From: Myxococcales bacterium
Lineage (GTDB): Bacteria; Myxococcota; Myxococcia; Myxococcales; Myxococcaceae
DNA length: 64,000 bases
Assembly (NCBI GenBank): GCA_016191815.1
Contig: JACPVI010000035.1
Span: 62,001-126,000, forward strand
Direction: 5' to 3'
Shown: piece after piece, positions 13,476 to 63,526 of the stretch
Numbering within the stretch: position 1 is the first letter of the stretch
How the letters are laid out: each line of letters starts with the position of its first letter
The notes under the pieces: model-generated
The model's input: only the letters and a program-made list of their open reading frames with translations
Database searches by the model: none
Told to the model about the DNA's origin: nothing
Translations under genes and position numbers: made by a program

Positions 13476-16400
13476 ATGGGCGAGCCGGCCATCGGAGGCG
13501 AAGCGAGCCACGGCGGAAGGCGCCGGGCATCCAGGCTGCTTCCCGCGGGCTTGTCCGCGGCGGCCGCGCTGGTGGCGCTGACGTGCGGGGTGCCGGACGA
13601 TGGCCGCACGGCGTCGGCGCTCGATGGGGGGGGGTAGCACGGGAGGCGCGTCGAGCTGCGGCCTCCCCGTCGACGCGCTGATTGAGGAGCTGCGGCTTTC
13701 GGACCCAGGCCTCCCGGTGGAGCGGTTTGCGCTGGGCGAGGTTTCGCGTGAGGCCTTCCTCTTGCTCGACGCCATGGAGGCCTCGGGCCCGCTGCCGGCG
13801 TTCCCTTCCATCTCTGCCCTTGGCCCGGCGGAGCGGAGGATGACGGCGGCGGGCGCGGCGATTCGGCTCCACGGAGTCTTCGCGCTCAACTGCGCGGAGC
13901 TCCGGCGGCTCGCTTACGGCCCGCCGAAGTCGGTGCTCGAGGTGGCACAAGCGGTAAACCTGGCGGCGGGGGCTCCGCTTTCGCCGTCCCAGGTGGCGGC
14001 GCTCCCCTTCGAGCGGCAATTCTTGGTGTGGGAGGTGGCGCGGGCCAACGACTTGGGCGAGGGGTGGAACGCCGCGGCGCACAACTCGGGCCCACCCGCC
14101 GAGAAGGGCGCACCCGGAGATGACCGGGTGGTGAGCGCGTCTTCCACCGTGGTTGCCAACCCGGTGAAGCAGCTCCTCATCGCCTTCATCGGAGCGCAGA
14201 AGGGGCGAGAGGCCTTCCCGCCGAAAGGAGCGGAGGATGCAGCCAAGCGGTGGCTTTCGGCGACTCGGGAGCAAGTCGACTTCGACGCGCTCTTGCGCGC
14301 GCTGGGGGACACCACGCCTCCGCCCGCCCCCAGCCTCGACCCTCTGCGCAGCCCCACCAACCAAACCCCCATCTCGCTCTCCGGCAGCACCGAGGCCTTC
14401 GCCACCGTCTTCGTCCTCGGAGGCAGCGCCCCGACATCCGCCGTGGCCGACGCGGCCGGACGCTTCTCGGTGGCAGTGCAGCTCCAATCCAACGTGGAAA
14501 ACCAGCTCCGCGCCACCGCGGTGGACCCAGCGGGAAACGCGGGCCCCGAGGCCACCGTTGCCATCCGCCACGACGATGTCCCGCCCACCGTGGTTGTTTC
14601 GGCGCCCGCAGATGGCGCGGCCACCGAGGAGATTGTCGTCCAGGTGCGGGGCAGTGCGGCCGACGACTTCCTGCTCAAGGAGGTGAGAGTCAACGCGGTT
14701 GCCGCGGCGCTGGCCCAGGGCGCCTTCGCCTCGGAGGTGACGCTGTCGGAGGGCAGCAACCTCATCCGCGCCGAGGCGGAGGACGAGGCCGGCAACCTCT
14801 CGGCCTTCGACGTGACCGTCCTTCACCGGAGGCCACCGGCCTACGCCCTCATCGGCCCGAGCGGCGGGAGCATCGAGGTGACGGATGTGAATCCCCTGTT
14901 GGGGGCCAAGCTGACGGTGCCGCCGGGAGCCGTCTCCCAGCCGGTGTGGGTGTGGATACGGCTGGTCGGCGCGGACTCGCTGCCGCCGCTCGGAGACGGA
15001 GTCGTGGCGCTCGGCCCGGCTGCAGCCTTCGAGACGAATGCCACGAGTTTCGCCGCGCCCGTCACCATCTCGGTGCCCTTCGACCGGACGCTCGTGCCGG
15101 CCGTCTGGGGCGACGTCGCGAGAGTGCGGATGTACCGACTCGACTCTGCCCAGGACGTTTTTGCAGAGGTGGCCGGAGCGGCCGAGAGCGGCGGATTCTT
15201 GCAGGCGCGCGTCACGAGCTTCTCCATCTACCAGGACGGCCTTCCACCCACGGTGCCGCTGGATGTCCGGGTGGAGACTTTGGCGGGCGATGGCACCTCG
15301 GGCGCGACGAGCTCCACGGACGAAGCCTGGAAGACCGCCCTCCCCACCCCCGAATGGACCGCGGTGGCCGCCGACGGCTCCTTCTATGCGAGCAGCTACG
15401 ATGGCTCGAAGACGAGCGTCTACAAGCTGGATGCCGCCACTCGAAGCCTGGTGCTCAAGGGCAGCGTGAGCGGCGTGCGGGGCAGTGGCTTGGGCGTAAA
15501 CAAGACCGGAGACGCCTTCGTGGGCGACAGGCAGGGGAAGAAGGTGTGGAAGCTCTCGGGAGGAGTCGCCTCCGCCTACGCGGGAGGAGGGACGAGTGCC
15601 GTCACCTCTACTTCCAACCTCGTCCAGCCCGCCACCTCGGCAGACTTGGGTGAGGTGCTCGGGCTCGCAGTGGATGTGGACACCGGAGACGTCTACGTCG
15701 TCGGCAGCCAGTACTTCGTGGTGCCCTCCGGGGGCGCCGGAGTGAAGCTGGCCGCGCCGCCCTTCACCCGGGCGCCGCCGCCTCCCTTGCCACCGAGCCT
15801 CGGCTTGTGCCCCACGCCGGCAGGTGGCGCGACGCGGCATCCTTTCGTGGTGGCCGTTTCGCCGGCTGGATTGCAGAGCGGGACTTCCCCGAAGCTTCTC
15901 TACATTGCCGACAGCGAGGCCAAGACGCTCGAGGTGGTCAACCTTGGCGCTTCTTCCGTCACCGTCTGGCCCGCGGCAAACGGCGTGTGCGGCTTTTCGA
16001 AGACGGTGGCCCCGGGGCAGAAGGCGACGCTGCTTGCGCCGACTCTCACGCTGTGGCCCGACTTGAAGCAGGAGGTCCCGTTCGAGGACCTCACCGGCCT
16101 GGCGGTGAGCAAGACCGGCGACATCTACTACACCGAGCGCCTGCAGCAGCGGGTTTCAGTCCGCTCCGGCCAGACGGGTTGCCCGACCGAGCTGGGGGGC
16201 GACAGGCAGTTCATCTCCACGTTCCGCATCTTCGCCAACGCCTGCGCCTATGACGGAGACGGGCGGCACCCAGTCGGCACTGCCTTCTTCGACCCGACTG
16301 GAGTGGCGCTGACGGAGGACGGGAACCTCCTGGTGGCCGACGCCGCCAACCAAAGGCTGCGCCTCATCTACGACGACGACCTCGACAACGATGGGGTGAG

Positions 16401-19400
16401 AAACGGGGACGGCTTCCGGGTGAAGGGTCCCGACAACTGCCCCAAGGCGTCCAACCAGAGCCAGGCCGACTACGACGCGGATGGCGAGGGCGACGCCTGC
16501 GACTCGGACGACGACAACGACGGAGTGCCGGACACCTCGGACAACTGCCCTTGGGCCTCCAACCCGGACCAGAGCAACGTCTGCCAGGGCGACGCCGACG
16601 GCGACGGAGTGCTGGACGACGGGAATGCGAGCGGTGTGGCTGGGGACTTGCTCTGCCCCCGGACGTCCAGCTCGCTGGGCCCCACCGCCTGCGACGACAA
16701 CTGCCCCACCGTCGCCAACTTCGACCAACTGGACCTGGACGGCGACGGGAAGGGCGACGCCTGCGACGGCGACGTGGACGGGGATGGCGTCGACGAAGCG
16801 GGCGCGGCGGCGGCCTGCAAAGGAGGGGCGACGACGGGATGCAACGACAACTGCGCGAACTTTCCCAACCCGACGCAGGCGGACATCGACTCGGACGGCG
16901 TGGGAGACCTGTGCGACTCGGACGCGGACGGCGACGGCATCCTGAACGACGCGGAGATTCTGGTCGGGCTGGACCCCGCGAAGGCGGACTCCGATGGCAA
17001 TGGGAAGTCCGATGGCGCCGAGGCGGGCACCTCCCTGGGGCCCGACGGGAAACTCACCGGGCCGCTGCCGGACCAGGACGGCGACGGCCTCCCCGACCCA
17101 GCCGAGGACGAAAACGGGGACGAAGACGACGATGGCACCAATGACGAGCAGGACTCGACGGATGACCGGCCGCTAGTGGCGCGTCTGTGGCTGGTCCGAG
17201 AGGACGTCACTGCAGTGGCGATGCCTGCCAGCACGACGCTGCTCGGGCTAAGGCATGGCGCCCAGACATCCTTCACGGCCCTGTACGGGCTCGCCACTGT
17301 CCCCCTGGCAGTCGGGCCGCCGCAATATGGCATCGTCCACGAGAAGCTGCCGCTGCCGAACGCCAGCGAGAACGCGAGGGTGTCTCCGTTCTGCGAACCC
17401 CGAACGAGGACGATCTCCGGTCCCTGCGGCACTGTGACCAGCTTGAAGACCTCTACTACCTGGTGCGAGTCAGAGACTCTGCGAGGCAGCATCCCCTGGC
17501 CCACCTTCAGCCGAGGCGCGGATTGCGGGCCGAGTGATCCGTCCTGCCTGGCAAGCACGCGCCTTCTCGGTGTTGGGCGCGGCAACGCGGCGGCCTTCCA
17601 GGTCGGTGAGGAGCAGGTCGACGTCGACGAGGTGCGGCGCGTCTCCTGCACCGCGTGCACGACCGGGACCGCCGAGTGCGGCACGACCGTCAGACAAGCC
17701 TCGGACAGCATGCTGATGAATGACGAGGCGGCGGTGAATATCCTCTCGATGGCCCACGCCATCGCGCGCCCCAACTCCGGCGCCAGCACCATGCTGTACC
17801 GCCTCACCGACTCCCGCCTGAAGGACGCCAAGCCCTTCACGACGTCCTACTGGTACCAGGGCGGCACCTCCGCTGGAGGCCTCGTGTTCTCGCAGGCGAC
17901 GGTTTCCGGCACTGCGGCACTGACGCCAATCCGGGCTGTCCTCTCCGACACTCCATCTTCCTACGTGCCCGACCTCGCCACGCCGCCGGGCCTCTACACG
18001 GTCGACCTAGAGCCCAAGACGTGGGAGGGAGTGCCCCTCAAGGCGAAGTTCCGTGTGACGCTCTTCGACACCACCGACTATCCGGGCTGCGCGATGAATG
18101 CGCACAATGGGGTCGCGCCGTGCAGAATCGCCTTCGATGGGAAGCCCGTGACGGACACGGACCCCGACATCGCCTTCGAGGTGCCGCTCCCGCTTGGAGC
18201 CACCCAAGTCACCAAGAGCACCGACACCAACGGCAGCCCGGTGCAGTACTTCGAGACGGCGCAGTTCGCCGACTCGTTCGGCTTCAACCTCAACGTTCAG
18301 GACTACGCCGCGTACTCGAAGCTGAAGGTGAGCATCGTGGCGCTGGAACTGGATGGCAAGCCATGGACGCCCTCCACTCCGGGTGCCTTGCCGCCGTTCC
18401 CCGGCTTCGTCTTGGGCCGCAAGCCGACCACGAAGGAGTGCGAGTTCAAACCGCTGGGGGCCACCGAGGAAGCTGGGTGCTTCACCCTCATCCCCATCGA
18501 CCGCGGCGAGTTACCAAACAGCCAGCCAGACAACAAGATCGCGGATCTTGGATGGACCGACGGCGCTGGTGCCAACGTCCCAGATACCTTCTCGGTCGCC
18601 ATGCTCAACGACAAGAACGTGACCGACGTGGAGTTGTACGGGAGCATCTTCGGGAAGGGCGACGGCTTCACTGTTCGTGAGGAATACCGGGGATTCGTGG
18701 CGCGGGGCGTACATCTGCGCACCAACCCCAACAAAGCTGACCTTTTTGCTACCGTCTACCCTCCGGCTCGCCTGACGATCCAGCACCTGGACAAGCTACC
18801 GACGGTTGCGGTGCACGAAGTCCTCTGGCCCGAGGTGGAGCGGAAGGCGGGCACCACTGCAGAGCTCGACGACCACCGAATCAACCTCCAGGGCAGTGTC
18901 TCTCACTTCCCCTGGTGGCGAGCGCAATCCGCGGTCGTGATACGCGAAGACGCCGACACGCATACCGGCCTGATCGATCCAAGTTCTGGCCTTCCACGCA
19001 ATTGGACATTGGGCGAAACTGCCTGCCTCGTCCCGAATCGCGGTCCGAATAGCTGCGGTCACGCTCGGGTGTTCTCGAAGCACATCGCATGGGTCAGCCC
19101 TCCTAACACATGCTTCTGCTGGGACGAGCAGCAATACCCGGCCCCGGTTGATTGCCAGCCGAACTACCTCCTCGGCCCCCCGCCTCCCGACCCCCTCGAT
19201 CCCGATGTCGAACGCGTCATCGCGGCGCACGAAGGCGGCCACGCGACGCCCATGGAGCACTACGATCGCGGCGCTGGGGTGCCAAGAAGCTTCATGGAAA
19301 ACCCCGGACTCGCGTGCTCGCCGACTCGAGATCTCGGTTGGTTCTCGAGTCTCCCAACTTCATACAACGCGGCGCGCGACCCTCTCCTGATGGAGTTGAC

Positions 19401-19413
19401 CGAGCCGAGGTAG
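13476..19413 (+). CDS. Giant secreted TSP3-repeat protein with C-terminal HEGGH motif; frame broken at a G9 tract
   Basis: The start with ribosome site and signal peptide (LPAGLSAAAALVALTCG) lies in one frame and ends at a stop at 13635. The rest, open to 19413, is in another frame. The frames meet at a run of nine G (13626-13634); with eight G they join as LDGGGSTGGASS, giving about 1978 residues. Visible parts are: a helical N-terminal region (50-280), Ig-like strands with DPAGNAGPEA and DEAGNLS (290-450), NHL/propeller-like repeats (GVALTEDGNLLVADAANQRL; 600-960), and Asp-rich thrombospondin type 3 repeats (DNDGVPDTSDNC and similar; 965-1230). A 600-residue region of unknown fold follows, then HEGGH at 1918-1922, the zincin motif HExxH. 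The Cys after the signal is not in a clean lipobox. Without the join, an ATG at 13600 would give a protein with no signal peptide. Confidence 0.75.
13626..13634. repeat. G9 homopolymer at the frame break
   Basis: Nine consecutive G separate the signal-peptide frame from the main frame of the large gene. Eight (or eleven) G would restore a continuous frame. Runs of this length are prone to slipped-strand change in cells and to miscounting by sequencers. Confidence 0.85.
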
Positions 19414-19424
19414 GAGGTAGTCAA

Positions 19425-20761
19425 ATGGTGTTCCATCCCGCTTCCATCCTCCTCGTCGCTATCTCCTCTTCCGCTCCGGAGGAATGTCCGAGGGACACTG
19501 CCGCCGTGATGGATTTTGGCATCAAGTTTGATACGGAAGAGGGCCGCAGAGAGCCAGGGGGTGCCGAAGCACTGTTTCTCGGCGAGAAGATCGACGCATC
19601 GGTCACCTTCTCTTGGACGGGGAATAGCTCGGCGATGGTCGCTGTTGGGCTTGCTCCGCAGCCAGCCGAGAGTTTCAACAATTACGTGTATTGGGTTGCC
19701 GCTCAGGAGTCAAAGAGTGCCGTTGCGCCGGCGAGCGTCAACCGGGAAGGGGGTGCTCCGCAACGTGCCCTTCGACTTCCCATGGAGAAACTCCCCCCCC
19801 CGGTCTCTACACGCTTGCCGTGAGAATCGGAACCTGTCCGCTGCAGGGAACGCCCGAATGGTTGCGGGTGAAGGAGTCCAGAACCAATCGCGAGAAGGCA
19901 ATCGTTCACTTGCGTCGGGCGTTCCTCCTGCAGACTCGTCCTGACGGGCTCGAGGCGGCGAAGATCGAGCTGCGCGCCGCGCGGGAGTTGGCTGGAGTTT
20001 GGCAGCCGTACATCTTCGTTGGGATGTTCGTGAACGCGAAAGACACGCATAGACGCGGCTCCAATAAGCCGGACCCCGAGTTCTGCAAAGACTTGTGGTT
20101 CAACCTCAGCCAGCAGCCGGCTAATCGGTTCGATCCAGGTGGACTCGCGCGCATGGAAGAGAGCTGCGGAAAGAGTCCATTCCCATTGGGTACGATTCCG
20201 GCCGAACCGCGGAAGCGTGTAGTGGATCGGCAGAGTTCTGACTACCTTCCCCACCGCGCGAAGTTGGCAGCCGGCTATGGACGGTACAAGGAGGCGAGGG
20301 AACTCTTGGCAGAAGCAAGGCGAATGTTGCATGACAAAGAAGACGCACTGGAGATTCAATACGTGGAGTACTTGCTGGCACTCAGGGAGGCTCGTTTGAG
20401 TGATGCCCTTTCGATCGCTGAGGCGATTGATCGCGAAAGCCCTCCTCCACACCCGACCTCATCACTTGCTCGGGCGGTCTTGGGAACCATGGTTTCAGTG
20501 GCGGCGCGAAAGGTGGAGGAGGGTGACCTGCAGGGAGCGGAAGTGCTGCTGAAGGAGGTTCGCCCGCGCATCGCGCCGGGCGACCGGCACCAGTTTCTTC
20601 GCGTGGAGGCGACCATCGCCAAGCGGCAAGGCCGCTGGGCAGACGCCGTTCGTCATCTCGAGGAGCTGCAGAGGCTGGAAAGATCGACCCCGCCAGAGAT
20701 CGAGGAGCTCCGACGCCAGGCCCAAGAAGCGCGGTCGCCCGCCGGGCCTGCTCAGCAATGA
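19425..20761 (+). CDS. Secreted protein with C-terminal TPR-like region; frame broken at a C9 tract
   Basis: The start at 19425 has a TAGGAGG ribosome site and follows the giant gene by 11 bases, so the two are likely one operon. The first part has a weak signal (ILLVAISSSAPEEC) and a beta-rich region (KIDASVTFSWTGNSSAMVAV). That frame stops at 19821, but the next frame continues smoothly from PPGLYTLAVRIGTCP to 20761. A tract of nine C (19793-19801) lies at the junction; ten C would give one protein of 445 residues. The C-terminal half has TPR-like helix pairs (AAGYGRYKEARELLAEARRM, ALSIAEAIDRE, GRWADAVRHLEELQRLE). GC is clearly lower than in the surroundings (52-53% in bases 20281-20400). 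Confidence 0.65.
19793..19801. repeat. C9 homopolymer at the frame break
   Basis: Nine consecutive C lie exactly where the coding signal of the 19425 gene changes frame. Ten or seven C would restore the frame. This is the second nine-base run in adjacent genes; I noticed no others in the window. Confidence 0.85.
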
Positions 20762-20824
20762 CCTTCTCGATGGCGATGGTCGCTCCCTTGCCGTTCGCCC
20801 CGCTGGGTAGCATCCTCATCTTCC

Positions 20825-21382
20825 ATGGCCGGACAGCCCGCCAAGCGCCTTGCGACCTATGCAGATCTCGAGTCGGTACCCGAGCACCAGCAAGGGGAGA
20901 TCATCGGCGGCGAGCTGATCGTCAGCCCGCGCCCTCGGGGCCGGGCGACGGTGTCCGCCAGCCACCTGGGAGGCATTCTGATCGGCCCCTTCCGGTTTGG
21001 AGTCGGCGGCCCCGGGGGGTGGGTGATCCTCTATGAACCGGAGATCCGGATTGCGGGAGAGCTGGCCATCCCCGACCTCGCCGGGTGGCGGCGCGAGCGG
21101 ATGCCCGTCGTCCCCGAGACGTTCGAAATGGCTCCGGACTGGGCGTGCGAAATCCTGTCGCCCTCCACGGAGGCCCTCGACCGCGGAGAGAAGATGCCGC
21201 TCTACGCCCGCTGGGGCGTGGGCCACTCCTGGCTCATCGACGCCAGCCTGAAGACCATCGAGGTGTTCCGGCTCGACGGAGGAAGCTGGCGCGTGGTCGG
21301 AACCTTCGTGGGCGAGCGCAAGGTTCGGCTCGAGCCCTTCGAGGCCATCGAGTTGGACCTCTCTCTCCTCTGGGCAATATAG
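20825..21382 (+). CDS. Uma2-family (DUF820) endonuclease-like protein
   Basis: 185 residues with the PD-(D/E)xK-like Uma2 pattern. It has an N-terminal helix and the strand GEIIGGELIVSPRP, then GGWVILYEPEIRIAGELAIP DLAGWRR (acidic residues of the active site), then CEILSPSTEALDRGEKMPLY and YARWGVGHSWLIDASLKTIE. Members are numerous in cyanobacteria and myxobacteria and are thought to be nucleases, but their biological role is unknown. A start at 20825 (ATGGCCGG) gives the family's usual length. It lies between the low-GC TPR gene and a convergent HAD gene. Confidence 0.88.
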   Translation: MAGQPAKRLATYADLESVPEHQQGEIIGGELIVSPRPRGRATVSASHLGGILIGPFRFGVGGPGGWVILYEPEIRIAGELAIPDLAGWRRERMPVVPETFEMAPDWACEILSPSTEALDRGEKMPLYARWGVGHSWLIDASLKTIEVFRLDGGSWRVVGTFVGERKVRLEPFEAIELDLSLLWAI

Positions 21383-60538: not shown

Positions 60539-63526
60539 ATGCGCCGCGCAGTCCTGCTCGTCTCGTTGCTGTCATTCGTCTGCGCCTGCAAGTGCACGCC
60601 CCCTCCCGGAAACGTGGGCGAAGACGGCGGCCCCCAAGGAGTGCCCTGTTCTTCCGATGGCGATTGCCCCATCGGCGAGGCCTGCGTGGAGGGCTATTGC
60701 GGCACCCCCCAGGTGCCCGACGCCGCCACGGGCTGCACCAGAAACGAGGACTGCCCTCCGGGAGAAGTCTGCCTCCCCAGCACCGGCCAGTGCATCACCC
60801 CCACTCCCGAAGACTCGGGCACCGAAACCGACGCCGGACAGACCGGCACCTGCTTCGAGGGTCAGACCCAGTCCTGCGGCTCCAGCAAGCTCGGGGAGTG
60901 CAGGCTGGGCACCTCCTCCTGCGTGCAGGTGGCCGGTGTGTGGCAGTTCGGGCCCTGCATGGGCGCGGTGGACCCGGTCCCCGAGGCCTGCAACGGCAAG
61001 GACGACGACTGCGACGGCGTCATCGACGACGGGCTGGGGACTCTGAGCTGCGGAATGGGCGCCTGCGCCCGCAGCGTGGACGCCTGCCTCGGCGGACAGC
61101 AGATGACTTGCGTGAGCGGGCCCTCCTCCGCCGAGGTGTGCGACGGAGTGGACAACGACTGCGACGGGCTGACCGACGAGGTCCTGGGCCTCACGACTTG
61201 TGGCATTGGCGCCTGCCTGCGCACCGTGCAGAGCTGCGTCGGAGGCGTAACCCAGACCTGCACTCCCGGAAGCCCGGGCACCGAGTCCTGCAACGGGGTG
61301 GACGACGACTGCAACGGCACCTCCGACGACGGCCTGGGACAGACCACCTGCGGGCTCGGCATCTGCCAGCGCACCATGGCCAACTGCGCCGGAGGCCAAC
61401 CCCAGGCCTGCACCCCGCTCGACGCCGGCGTGGAGAGTTGCAACAGCATCGACGACAACTGCAACGGGCTCACCGACGAGACCTGCGCCTGCTCCGCGGG
61501 CCAGAACCAGGCCTGCTACACCGGGCCGGCGGGCACTCAGGGAGTGGGGCCCTGCGAGGCCGGCTCCCAATCCTGCGACGGCGGCTCCTGGGGGCCGTGT
61601 GCCAGCGAGGTGACGCCGGTGCCGGAGAGCTGCAACGGGGTGGACGACGACTGCAGCAGCCAGGTCGACGACGGCCTCGGCTCCACCTGGTGCGGAGTGG
61701 GCGCCTGCCGCGTCAACCAGCCGAACTGCCTGGGCGGCCAGCCCAATACCTGCGTCCCTCTGGATGCGGGAGTGGAGAGCTGCAACGGCATCGACGACGA
61801 CTGCGACACCCAGACCGATGAGGGGCTGGGCACCCTGACCTGTGGCGTGGGGGCCTGCCAGGTGACGGTGAACGCCTGCGTGGGCGGCACGCCCCAGTCC
61901 TGCACTCCGGGCAGCCCGAACACCGAGCTCTGCGACGGCATCGACAACAACTGCAACGGGAGCACCGACGAGACTTTCCCCCAGCAGGGCCAGAGCTGCC
62001 CCACCGGCCAGCAGGGCATCTGCGCGAGTGGCCAGTCCACCTGCGTCTCCGGCGCGCTGGGGTGCAAGGCTCCCGACGCCGGAGTGGAGCTGTGCCCGCC
62101 CGACGGAGGGCTGGACGAGAACTGCAACGGCATCGTGGATGATCCGATGATCTGCGGCTGCAACGTCACGGTGGACAACGACACCGACGGCGCCAACGAG
62201 TGCGTGGACTGCAACGACAACGACGGCACCATCAAGCCGGGCGCCACCGAGAAGTGCAACGGCAAGGACGACAACTGCAACTCGCAAGTAGACGAAGGCT
62301 TCGACCAGGACAGCGACGGCTTCACCACCTGCGGCACCAAGCCCGGCGGCGGAGTGGACCCCACCCGCATCGACTGCAATGACAACAACGCCTTCGTCTT
62401 CCCGCTGAAAGTGACCGACTGCGGGAACGCCGCCACCCCCAGCACCGCCAACGGGGTGGACGACAACTGCAACGGCTACATCGACGAGACTTGCACCTGC
62501 ACCGCCCAGGACAAGGACTCGGACGGCGTCACCACCTGCGCCGGCGACTGCAACGACAACGACCCGGCGGTGGCGCCCGGCAAGGCCGAGGTCTGCGACG
62601 GCAAGGACAACGACTGCAACAAGGCTACGGTGGACAACTGCGGGGTGTCGGATCCCTGCGGCCAGAGGCAGGGGCCCGGCTACGTCCCCTTCCCCGCCGG
62701 GACGGATCAATGCAAGCCCGACCTCCTCTGCATCTCCGACCTGCAGACCGGGGCGCTGAGCTGCCACTCCTTCTGCAACCAGACGGTGGGGCTCGGCCTC
62801 AACGACAGCTGCGCCAGCGGAGAGGGCTGTAACCGGACCTTCCTCCAGTCCGACGACCTCCATATGTGCGGGAAGACGCCCACCGGAGCGAAGACCACCG
62901 GGCAGACCTGCTCCTTGAGCTCGGAGTGCCGGACCGGGTGGTGCCGGAGCGAGAGCGGCCAGTCGTACTGCTCCGACGCCTGCACCCACGAGGCGGGCTG
63001 CAGCGCCAACACTACCTGCGTCATCAGCAAGCAGAACACGTTCCAGCAGGGGCAGCTCTATCAGTGGTTCTCCAGCACTTGCCGGCTGGACTCGCTCCTT
63101 TCCGGCACCAAGCTCACCGGCGACAGCTGCACCGGGACGCAGTGCAAGACCGGCGCGGACGGCTGCTTCAACGGGAAGTGCACCGAGCCCTGCTGCCAGC
63201 ACTCCGACTGCCCGGGGGCCTTCATCTGCTCCATCCAGGGGCCGCGCCAGTCGGTGGTCGGCGGCACCCAGGTGTCCGTCCAACCGGCCTGCCTCACCGC
63301 CACCGGCAGCAAGGTTTCCGGTCAGGCGTGCGGCGCTTCCACCGAGTGCAAGGCCGGCATCTGCGACAAGGCGCAAGGCATCTGCGTGGACCTCTGCTGC
63401 AACGACGGCTCCTGCCCCAACGGAACCACCTGCGAGCTGGTGAAGTTCAAGTTCTCCAACGGGAACGAGAGCAACATCCGCGCCTGCCTCTTCTCGCCGC
63501 TGCCCGCCCTGGTGGAGCAGAAGTAG
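60539..63526 (+). CDS. Large lipoprotein with about 11 MopE-type metal-binding repeats
   Basis: 995 residues. Signal peptide ending near Cys17 (SLLSFVCAC, weak lipobox). Short Cys units (CSSDGDCPIGEAC) at 35-85 lead into repeats of C-N-G-x-D-D-D-C-D-G-x-x-D (the PF11617/MopE-type putative metal-binding motif): CNGKDDDCDGVIDDG, CDGVDNDCDGLTDE, CNGVDDDCNGTSDDG and eight more, to about residue 700. A Cys-rich C-terminal part (CQHSDCPGAFIC, CCNDGSCPNGTTC) follows. In MopE the motif lies near the copper site of a methanotroph surface protein; here binding is inferred from Asp and Cys spacing only. Confidence 0.85.
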   Translation: MRRAVLLVSLLSFVCACKCTPPPGNVGEDGGPQGVPCSSDGDCPIGEACVEGYCGTPQVPDAATGCTRNEDCPPGEVCLPSTGQCITPTPEDSGTETDAGQTGTCFEGQTQSCGSSKLGECRLGTSSCVQVAGVWQFGPCMGAVDPVPEACNGKDDDCDGVIDDGLGTLSCGMGACARSVDACLGGQQMTCVSGPSSAEVCDGVDNDCDGLTDEVLGLTTCGIGACLRTVQSCVGGVTQTCTPGSPGTESCNGVDDDCNGTSDDGLGQTTCGLGICQRTMANCAGGQPQACTPLDAGVESCNSIDDNCNGLTDETCACSAGQNQACYTGPAGTQGVGPCEAGSQSCDGGSWGPCASEVTPVPESCNGVDDDCSSQVDDGLGSTWCGVGACRVNQPNCLGGQPNTCVPLDAGVESCNGIDDDCDTQTDEGLGTLTCGVGACQVTVNACVGGTPQSCTPGSPNTELCDGIDNNCNGSTDETFPQQGQSCPTGQQGICASGQSTCVSGALGCKAPDAGVELCPPDGGLDENCNGIVDDPMICGCNVTVDNDTDGANECVDCNDNDGTIKPGATEKCNGKDDNCNSQVDEGFDQDSDGFTTCGTKPGGGVDPTRIDCNDNNAFVFPLKVTDCGNAATPSTANGVDDNCNGYIDETCTCTAQDKDSDGVTTCAGDCNDNDPAVAPGKAEVCDGKDNDCNKATVDNCGVSDPCGQRQGPGYVPFPAGTDQCKPDLLCISDLQTGALSCHSFCNQTVGLGLNDSCASGEGCNRTFLQSDDLHMCGKTPTGAKTTGQTCSLSSECRTGWCRSESGQSYCSDACTHEAGCSANTTCVISKQNTFQQGQLYQWFSSTCRLDSLLSGTKLTGDSCTGTQCKTGADGCFNGKCTEPCCQHSDCPGAFICSIQGPRQSVVGGTQVSVQPACLTATGSKVSGQACGASTECKAGICDKAQGICVDLCCNDGSCPNGTTCELVKFKFSNGNESNIRACLFSPLPALVEQK

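Follow-up and report, generated by a model that had tools for sequence, protein, structure and literature searches.

Two neighbouring exported-protein genes interrupted at nine-base G/C runs: possibly a recently inactivated copy of a duplicated module

Two adjacent, co-directional genes, here called A and B, each lose their continuous reading frame at a run of nine identical bases. They lie in a 64-kb stretch of DNA, referred to as the window in the following, which covers positions 62001–126000 of contig C25 in a 6.77 Mb draft genome of 89 contigs. We find that this pair is best explained, with a confidence just short of even, as a recently inactivated copy of a two-gene module, most likely one that does not switch back. 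Gene B would be the second cistron of this module, which encodes first a large exported multidomain protein and then a small protein, likewise exported, with a beta-type and a TPR-like part, and the module would have been duplicated several times in this lineage. Small homopolymer indels would then have cost both cistrons their continuous frame, gene A at a G9 and gene B at a C9 run, with gene B probably carrying a further indel at about 19743–19756, so that its translation would yield a 132-residue beta fragment without the TPR half. Replication slippage would be the probable cause, and the window's copy would presumably have lost its function. We favor this interpretation because the genome holds intact one-frame paralogues as well as relics of the module, because the probable second lesion of gene B lies off the C run, because the gene A paralogue on contig C2 has no G run, and because run lengths in the genome are ordinary. 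Beyond its G9 run, gene A shows no other lesion and is intact over more than 1900 codons; decay would therefore have to be recent. The features are listed in Table 1.

Table 1. Features of the module in the window and of related copies (window positions unless a contig is given)
Feature	Position	Strand or setting	Basis or remark
Gene A leader: signal peptide with lipobox-like LVALTC, stop just past the G run	13476..13637	+	ORF; function and spacing as in the leader of the C2 paralogue
Gene A body, probable large exported protein: Big_6, Glucodextran_B, ZU5, NHL, thrombospondin type 3 repeats, lineage-specific C-terminal region	13600..19413	+	ORF, Pfam, paralogues on C2, C40 and C72
G9 run, frame change of gene A	13626..13634	+	Sequence
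GGAGG ribosome-binding site of gene B, overlapping the gene A stop codon	19413..19417	+	Sequence
Gene B, whole	19425..20761	+	Second cistron after gene A
Gene B, frame 1: leader and beta-type N-terminal part	19425..19823	+	Resembles P0005 around SVTFSWTGN
Gene B, codon usage favoring frame 2, VLRNVPFDFPWRNS; frame probably changes a second time near GGGAAGGGGG	19743..19792	+	Codon usage; weak alignment support
C9 run, where reading passes into frame 3	19793..19801	+	Sequence
Gene B, frame 3: TPR half, 319 residues and stop	19802..20761	+	Open frame, AlphaFold2, Foldseek, Pfam
Gene B paralogues	P0003 on C72; P0004 and P0005 on C40	One frame	Synteny and architecture
Module relic	C25:35299-35925	About 26 kb upstream of the window	Small gene internally deleted and frame-broken; gene A tail with stop

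The C run in gene B counts exactly nine bases. Frame 1 extends from its ATG over 132 codons, with a stop that ends 22 bases past the run, and frame 3 is open for the TPR half over 19802–20758. An earlier note on this DNA had described two halves in different frames that meet at nine C, and its coordinates are borne out by the sequence and the ORF reading; its calculation that ten C would give a 445-residue protein is likewise right, as frames 1 and 3 become continuous with either ten or seven C. The start of gene B lies 11 nt behind the stop of gene A, and this short gap, together with the ribosome-binding site that overlaps the stop codon, makes the two genes look like one operon. The window has a G+C content of 68%, and the module is directly followed by a gene of the Uma2 family (PF05685; 20825–21382). 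Gene content, G+C and genome size suggest that the organism is a myxobacterium.

Searches with gene A, rather than with gene B, uncovered paralogous modules elsewhere in the genome. The C-terminal region of gene A recurs on contigs C40 and C72, with 43% identity in the best-matching stretch of about 280 residues, and each of these gene A-like tails is followed by a small gene whose single frame covers an N-terminal leader and then beta-type and helical parts. P0004 has a weak TPR match of its own in Pfam, and the AlphaFold2 model of P0003 shows strands first and helices later, although at low confidence (mean pLDDT 36); beyond this order of elements, we discarded the model. Gene B resembles P0005 weakly over SVTFSWTGN...VAVGLAP, at the matching position. 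As sequence similarity is weak throughout, the assignment of these three proteins as gene B paralogues leans on synteny and architecture, and a frameshift-aware alignment of them to gene B proved too weak in similarity to place the break. Since the two halves share one frame in these paralogues, the intact architecture of gene B is, on this assignment, one continuous protein with a beta-type and a TPR-like part. This agrees with the earlier note, which had taken the two halves for one protein and had pointed to homologues lacking the N-terminal half as a counter-indication; the paralogues assigned here do have that half. The codon usage over 18897–20881, that is, of the gene A tail and gene B, is unlike that of the genome, and a codon model trained on this genome calls the region non-coding; the gene B paralogues behave alike.

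The C-terminal half of gene B is TPR-like by prediction. Pfam searches gave weak TPR matches (best E-value about 5e-4) below the curated cut-offs, and no Pfam TPR model matched this half above its gathering score. AlphaFold2 predicts tandem helix-turn-helix repeats, with TPR-like helix pairs over residues 161–290 of this half at a pLDDT of about 74–95, and TPR structures are prominent among its Foldseek matches, none of which has an E-value below 0.001. The predicted fold speaks for frame 3 as the one that codes beyond the C run. We found no homologues of the TPR half in 60 relatives, in 195 genomes of the phylum or in a scan of GTDB r220, and the beta-type N-terminal part of gene B matches no known family. 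The two-gene module, a large multidomain protein with a beta/TPR partner, seems confined to one lineage and is uncharacterised.

In gene A, the leader and the body of 1937 codons lie in different frames on either side of the G9 run; the earlier note had correctly recognized a neighboring co-directional gene broken at a nine-base run. The N-terminal part of gene A is 84% identical to that of a 2453-residue protein on contig C2, which has an intact lipobox, a continuous frame and no G run. In that protein, 23 residues separate the lipobox cysteine from a CGLP motif, and the same spacing is obtained when gene A is read across G9. A change in run length alone would thus be a fitting way to restore gene A, as its linker would then be as long as in the C2 paralogue. 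At the DNA level, the front half of gene A (13651–16573) is 81% identical to the C2 gene (L109), whose back half is unrelated. Gene A is, judging from these comparisons, a mosaic of a C2-like front and a C40/C72-like back, with a C-terminal region that appears exchangeable. This region contains HEGGHATPMEH (19228–19260), a metzincin-like HExxHxxxxxH zinc-site pattern that the C72 copy retains (HEGGHSVAMTH) and the C40 copy has lost (HEVGG); Pfam gave no support for a protease in the region.

Further copies of the module have decayed. At the relic locus upstream of the window (examined as L117 6905–7925, corresponding to C25:34905–35925), both the small gene and the gene A tail are damaged (Table 1), and on C40, the gene A tail ahead of P0005 is only fragmentary. 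By the sequence of these two loci, the decay of this module is documented independently in the genome.

In gene B, the C run does not appear to be the only lesion. We applied the codon model with frame-switch penalties from 6 to 15, and it placed frame changes at 19743 and 19804 at penalties of 6 to 12, and a single one only at 15. Over 19753–19792 (13 codons), frame 2 scores +3.0, compared with −6.6 and −7.2 for the other two frames. A win of this size for the +1 frame occurs in about 0.6% of windows in comparable intact genes (those of P0003, P0004, P0005 and the C2 protein, the big C40 gene and the TPR half), and in 3% in the worst of them. The corresponding peptide in frame 2, VLRNVPFDFPWRNSPP, gives a gap-free alignment with LPRILAVDLSEFVEEE of P0003, upstream of a GxYxL motif that both share, with a score that exceeds those of frames 1 and 3 and lies below significance; in profile searches, the readings with one and with two changes scored equally. 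The codon usage of these 13 codons makes it quite probable that gene B changes frame twice, once at about 19743–19756 and once at C9. In that case, a change of the C run alone would yield a fusion in which roughly 13 to 17 residues before the run are wrong, instead of a protein like the paralogues, and the earlier expectation that a single such change restores the protein is not supported by the frame-2 codon usage just left of it.

To put the two runs in context, we surveyed G/C runs across the genome. Apart from G9 and C9, the window has no run that reaches 8 bases. The genome as a whole has 212 G/C runs of at least 7; exactly 8 bases are found in 58 of them and 9 or more in 18, which comprise 13 runs of nine, a single run of 10, three of 11 and, at the end of a contig, one of 17. 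These lengths follow an ordinary decay curve, and length 9 is not enriched. In the genes of prokaryotes, poly-C and poly-G stretches are as a rule under-represented (PMC2831843). Elsewhere in this genome, seven runs of at least 9 sit within coding sequence without disturbing its frame, and so do 20 of the 29 runs sampled among the 58 of exactly 8; a further run (L046) falls in a long open frame of 392 + 244 codons and narrowly under the score threshold. The rest of the runs of at least 9 fall between genes, at the boundaries or ends of genes or close to contig ends, or are unclassified. Five loci considered as further broken genes (L040, L043, L047, L033 and L056) were rejected, as the runs turned out on inspection to lie at gene boundaries, starts or ends. 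What sets G9 and C9 of the window apart is that, among the classifiable runs of 9 or more, only they break a coding sequence internally. Their closeness alone is unremarkable, since another pair of such runs lies within about 7 kb (C3:61668 and 68917). With regard to conservation of the runs, which we compared in paralogues rather than orthologues, the C2 paralogue has no G run, and the gene B paralogues on C40 and C72 have no C/G run of 9 or more.

Three other long runs were observed in this survey. An eleven-base run (L040 3001–3011) sits at the 3' end of a histidine-kinase-like gene, beside its stop, where its length would set the C-terminal residues; a C11 run (L042 3001–3011) precedes by some 70–80 bases the point where a long ORF with a signal peptide probably starts; and contig C57 (L041) opens with 17 C (C57:1–17), a sign that long G/C runs stopped the assembly.

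The strongest alternative to a recently broken copy is phase variation, in which slipped-strand mispairing at both runs would switch genes A and B independently between up to four states, with the assembly capturing the off/off state. Switching, too, would place the breaks at the two longest runs of the window, where both of them are found, and this stands as a counterpoint to decay. That adjacent cistrons are each broken exactly at a nine-base G/C run, that these are the only internal breaks at long runs found in the genome, and that G9 closely follows the signal-peptide segment of what is probably a surface protein with an otherwise intact body all speak for it. Likewise, homopolymer switching does happen in a GC-rich genome, as cases in M. 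tuberculosis demonstrate (PMC11898584). On the other hand, gene B probably changes frame a second time outside the C run, the C2 paralogue has no G run, and run lengths are not enriched; moreover, since mutS is present, the raised slippage expected without mismatch repair is not obvious here. Reversible switching thus fits gene A well and gene B poorly, and we regard it as possible but unlikely overall. In the literature searched, we found no reports of homopolymer switching in myxobacteria, and GTDB r220, from which near-identical genomes may be left out, contained no second strain with the same flanks and another run length. That both runs are truly variable, so that this surface module of two cistrons, in a GC-rich and probably myxobacterial genome, would be a paired contingency locus whose expression states combine, appears quite unlikely to us. 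If they do vary, this would be homopolymer switching in a group for which our literature searches returned no such case, and with both tracts in the same operon, combinatorial switching could be tested.

It is also unlikely, in our estimate, that the genes are intact and one or both runs, perhaps along with the G-rich stretch near 19750, were miscounted in sequencing or assembly. The draft state of the genome and the 17 C at a contig start, which suggests that the assembly struggles with such runs, are in line with this, as is the otherwise fully open frame of gene A. Yet the runs of similar length that are in frame elsewhere, together with the lack of another internal break among the classifiable runs of 9 or more, argue against a general miscount, so that the systematic miscounting considered in the earlier note is not favored; two individual errors are still compatible with these counts. 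Furthermore, the relics of the module point to true decay, and if the second frame change is real, an extra error at a five-G run would be needed.

Nine identical bases in a row can cause slippage during expression, and transcriptional slippage or programmed ribosomal frameshifting at the runs could in principle provide some full-length protein. We consider this very improbable, because the paralogues are encoded in one frame and need no slippage, and because no long run lies at the site near 19750 where gene B probably changes frame a second time. Equally remote is the idea that two genes are involved, one for an exported protein of 132 residues and one for a TPR protein with its own start: while the frame-3 ORF has an upstream TTG at 19691, the paralogues encode both parts in one frame, and frame 3 upstream of the C run has a non-coding codon usage (−7.2 over 13 codons).

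Compared with known systems, gene B is similar to TPR proteins in the predicted TPR-like helix pairs of its C-terminal half, but differs in that its Pfam TPR matches are all sub-threshold, its N-terminal beta part is familyless and its TPR half lacks homologues in the 195 phylum genomes and GTDB r220. With the contingency genes of Campylobacter, Neisseria, Bordetella and M. tuberculosis, the locus shares a frame change at nine consecutive G or C in a gene whose protein is probably exported and, in gene A, the position of the run behind a signal peptide. In contrast to these genes, the candidate locus has a readable paralogue in which the run is absent, its gene B has a probable second frame change outside the run, and run lengths in its genome are not enriched. 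Finally, it resembles frameshifted pseudogenes of duplicated families in that intact paralogues, relics and homopolymer indels occur in the same genome, and differs from them in that gene A has no further lesion, so that inactivation would be recent or incomplete. If the window's module is indeed such a broken copy, it reveals an exported two-gene module that duplicates fast and decays fast.
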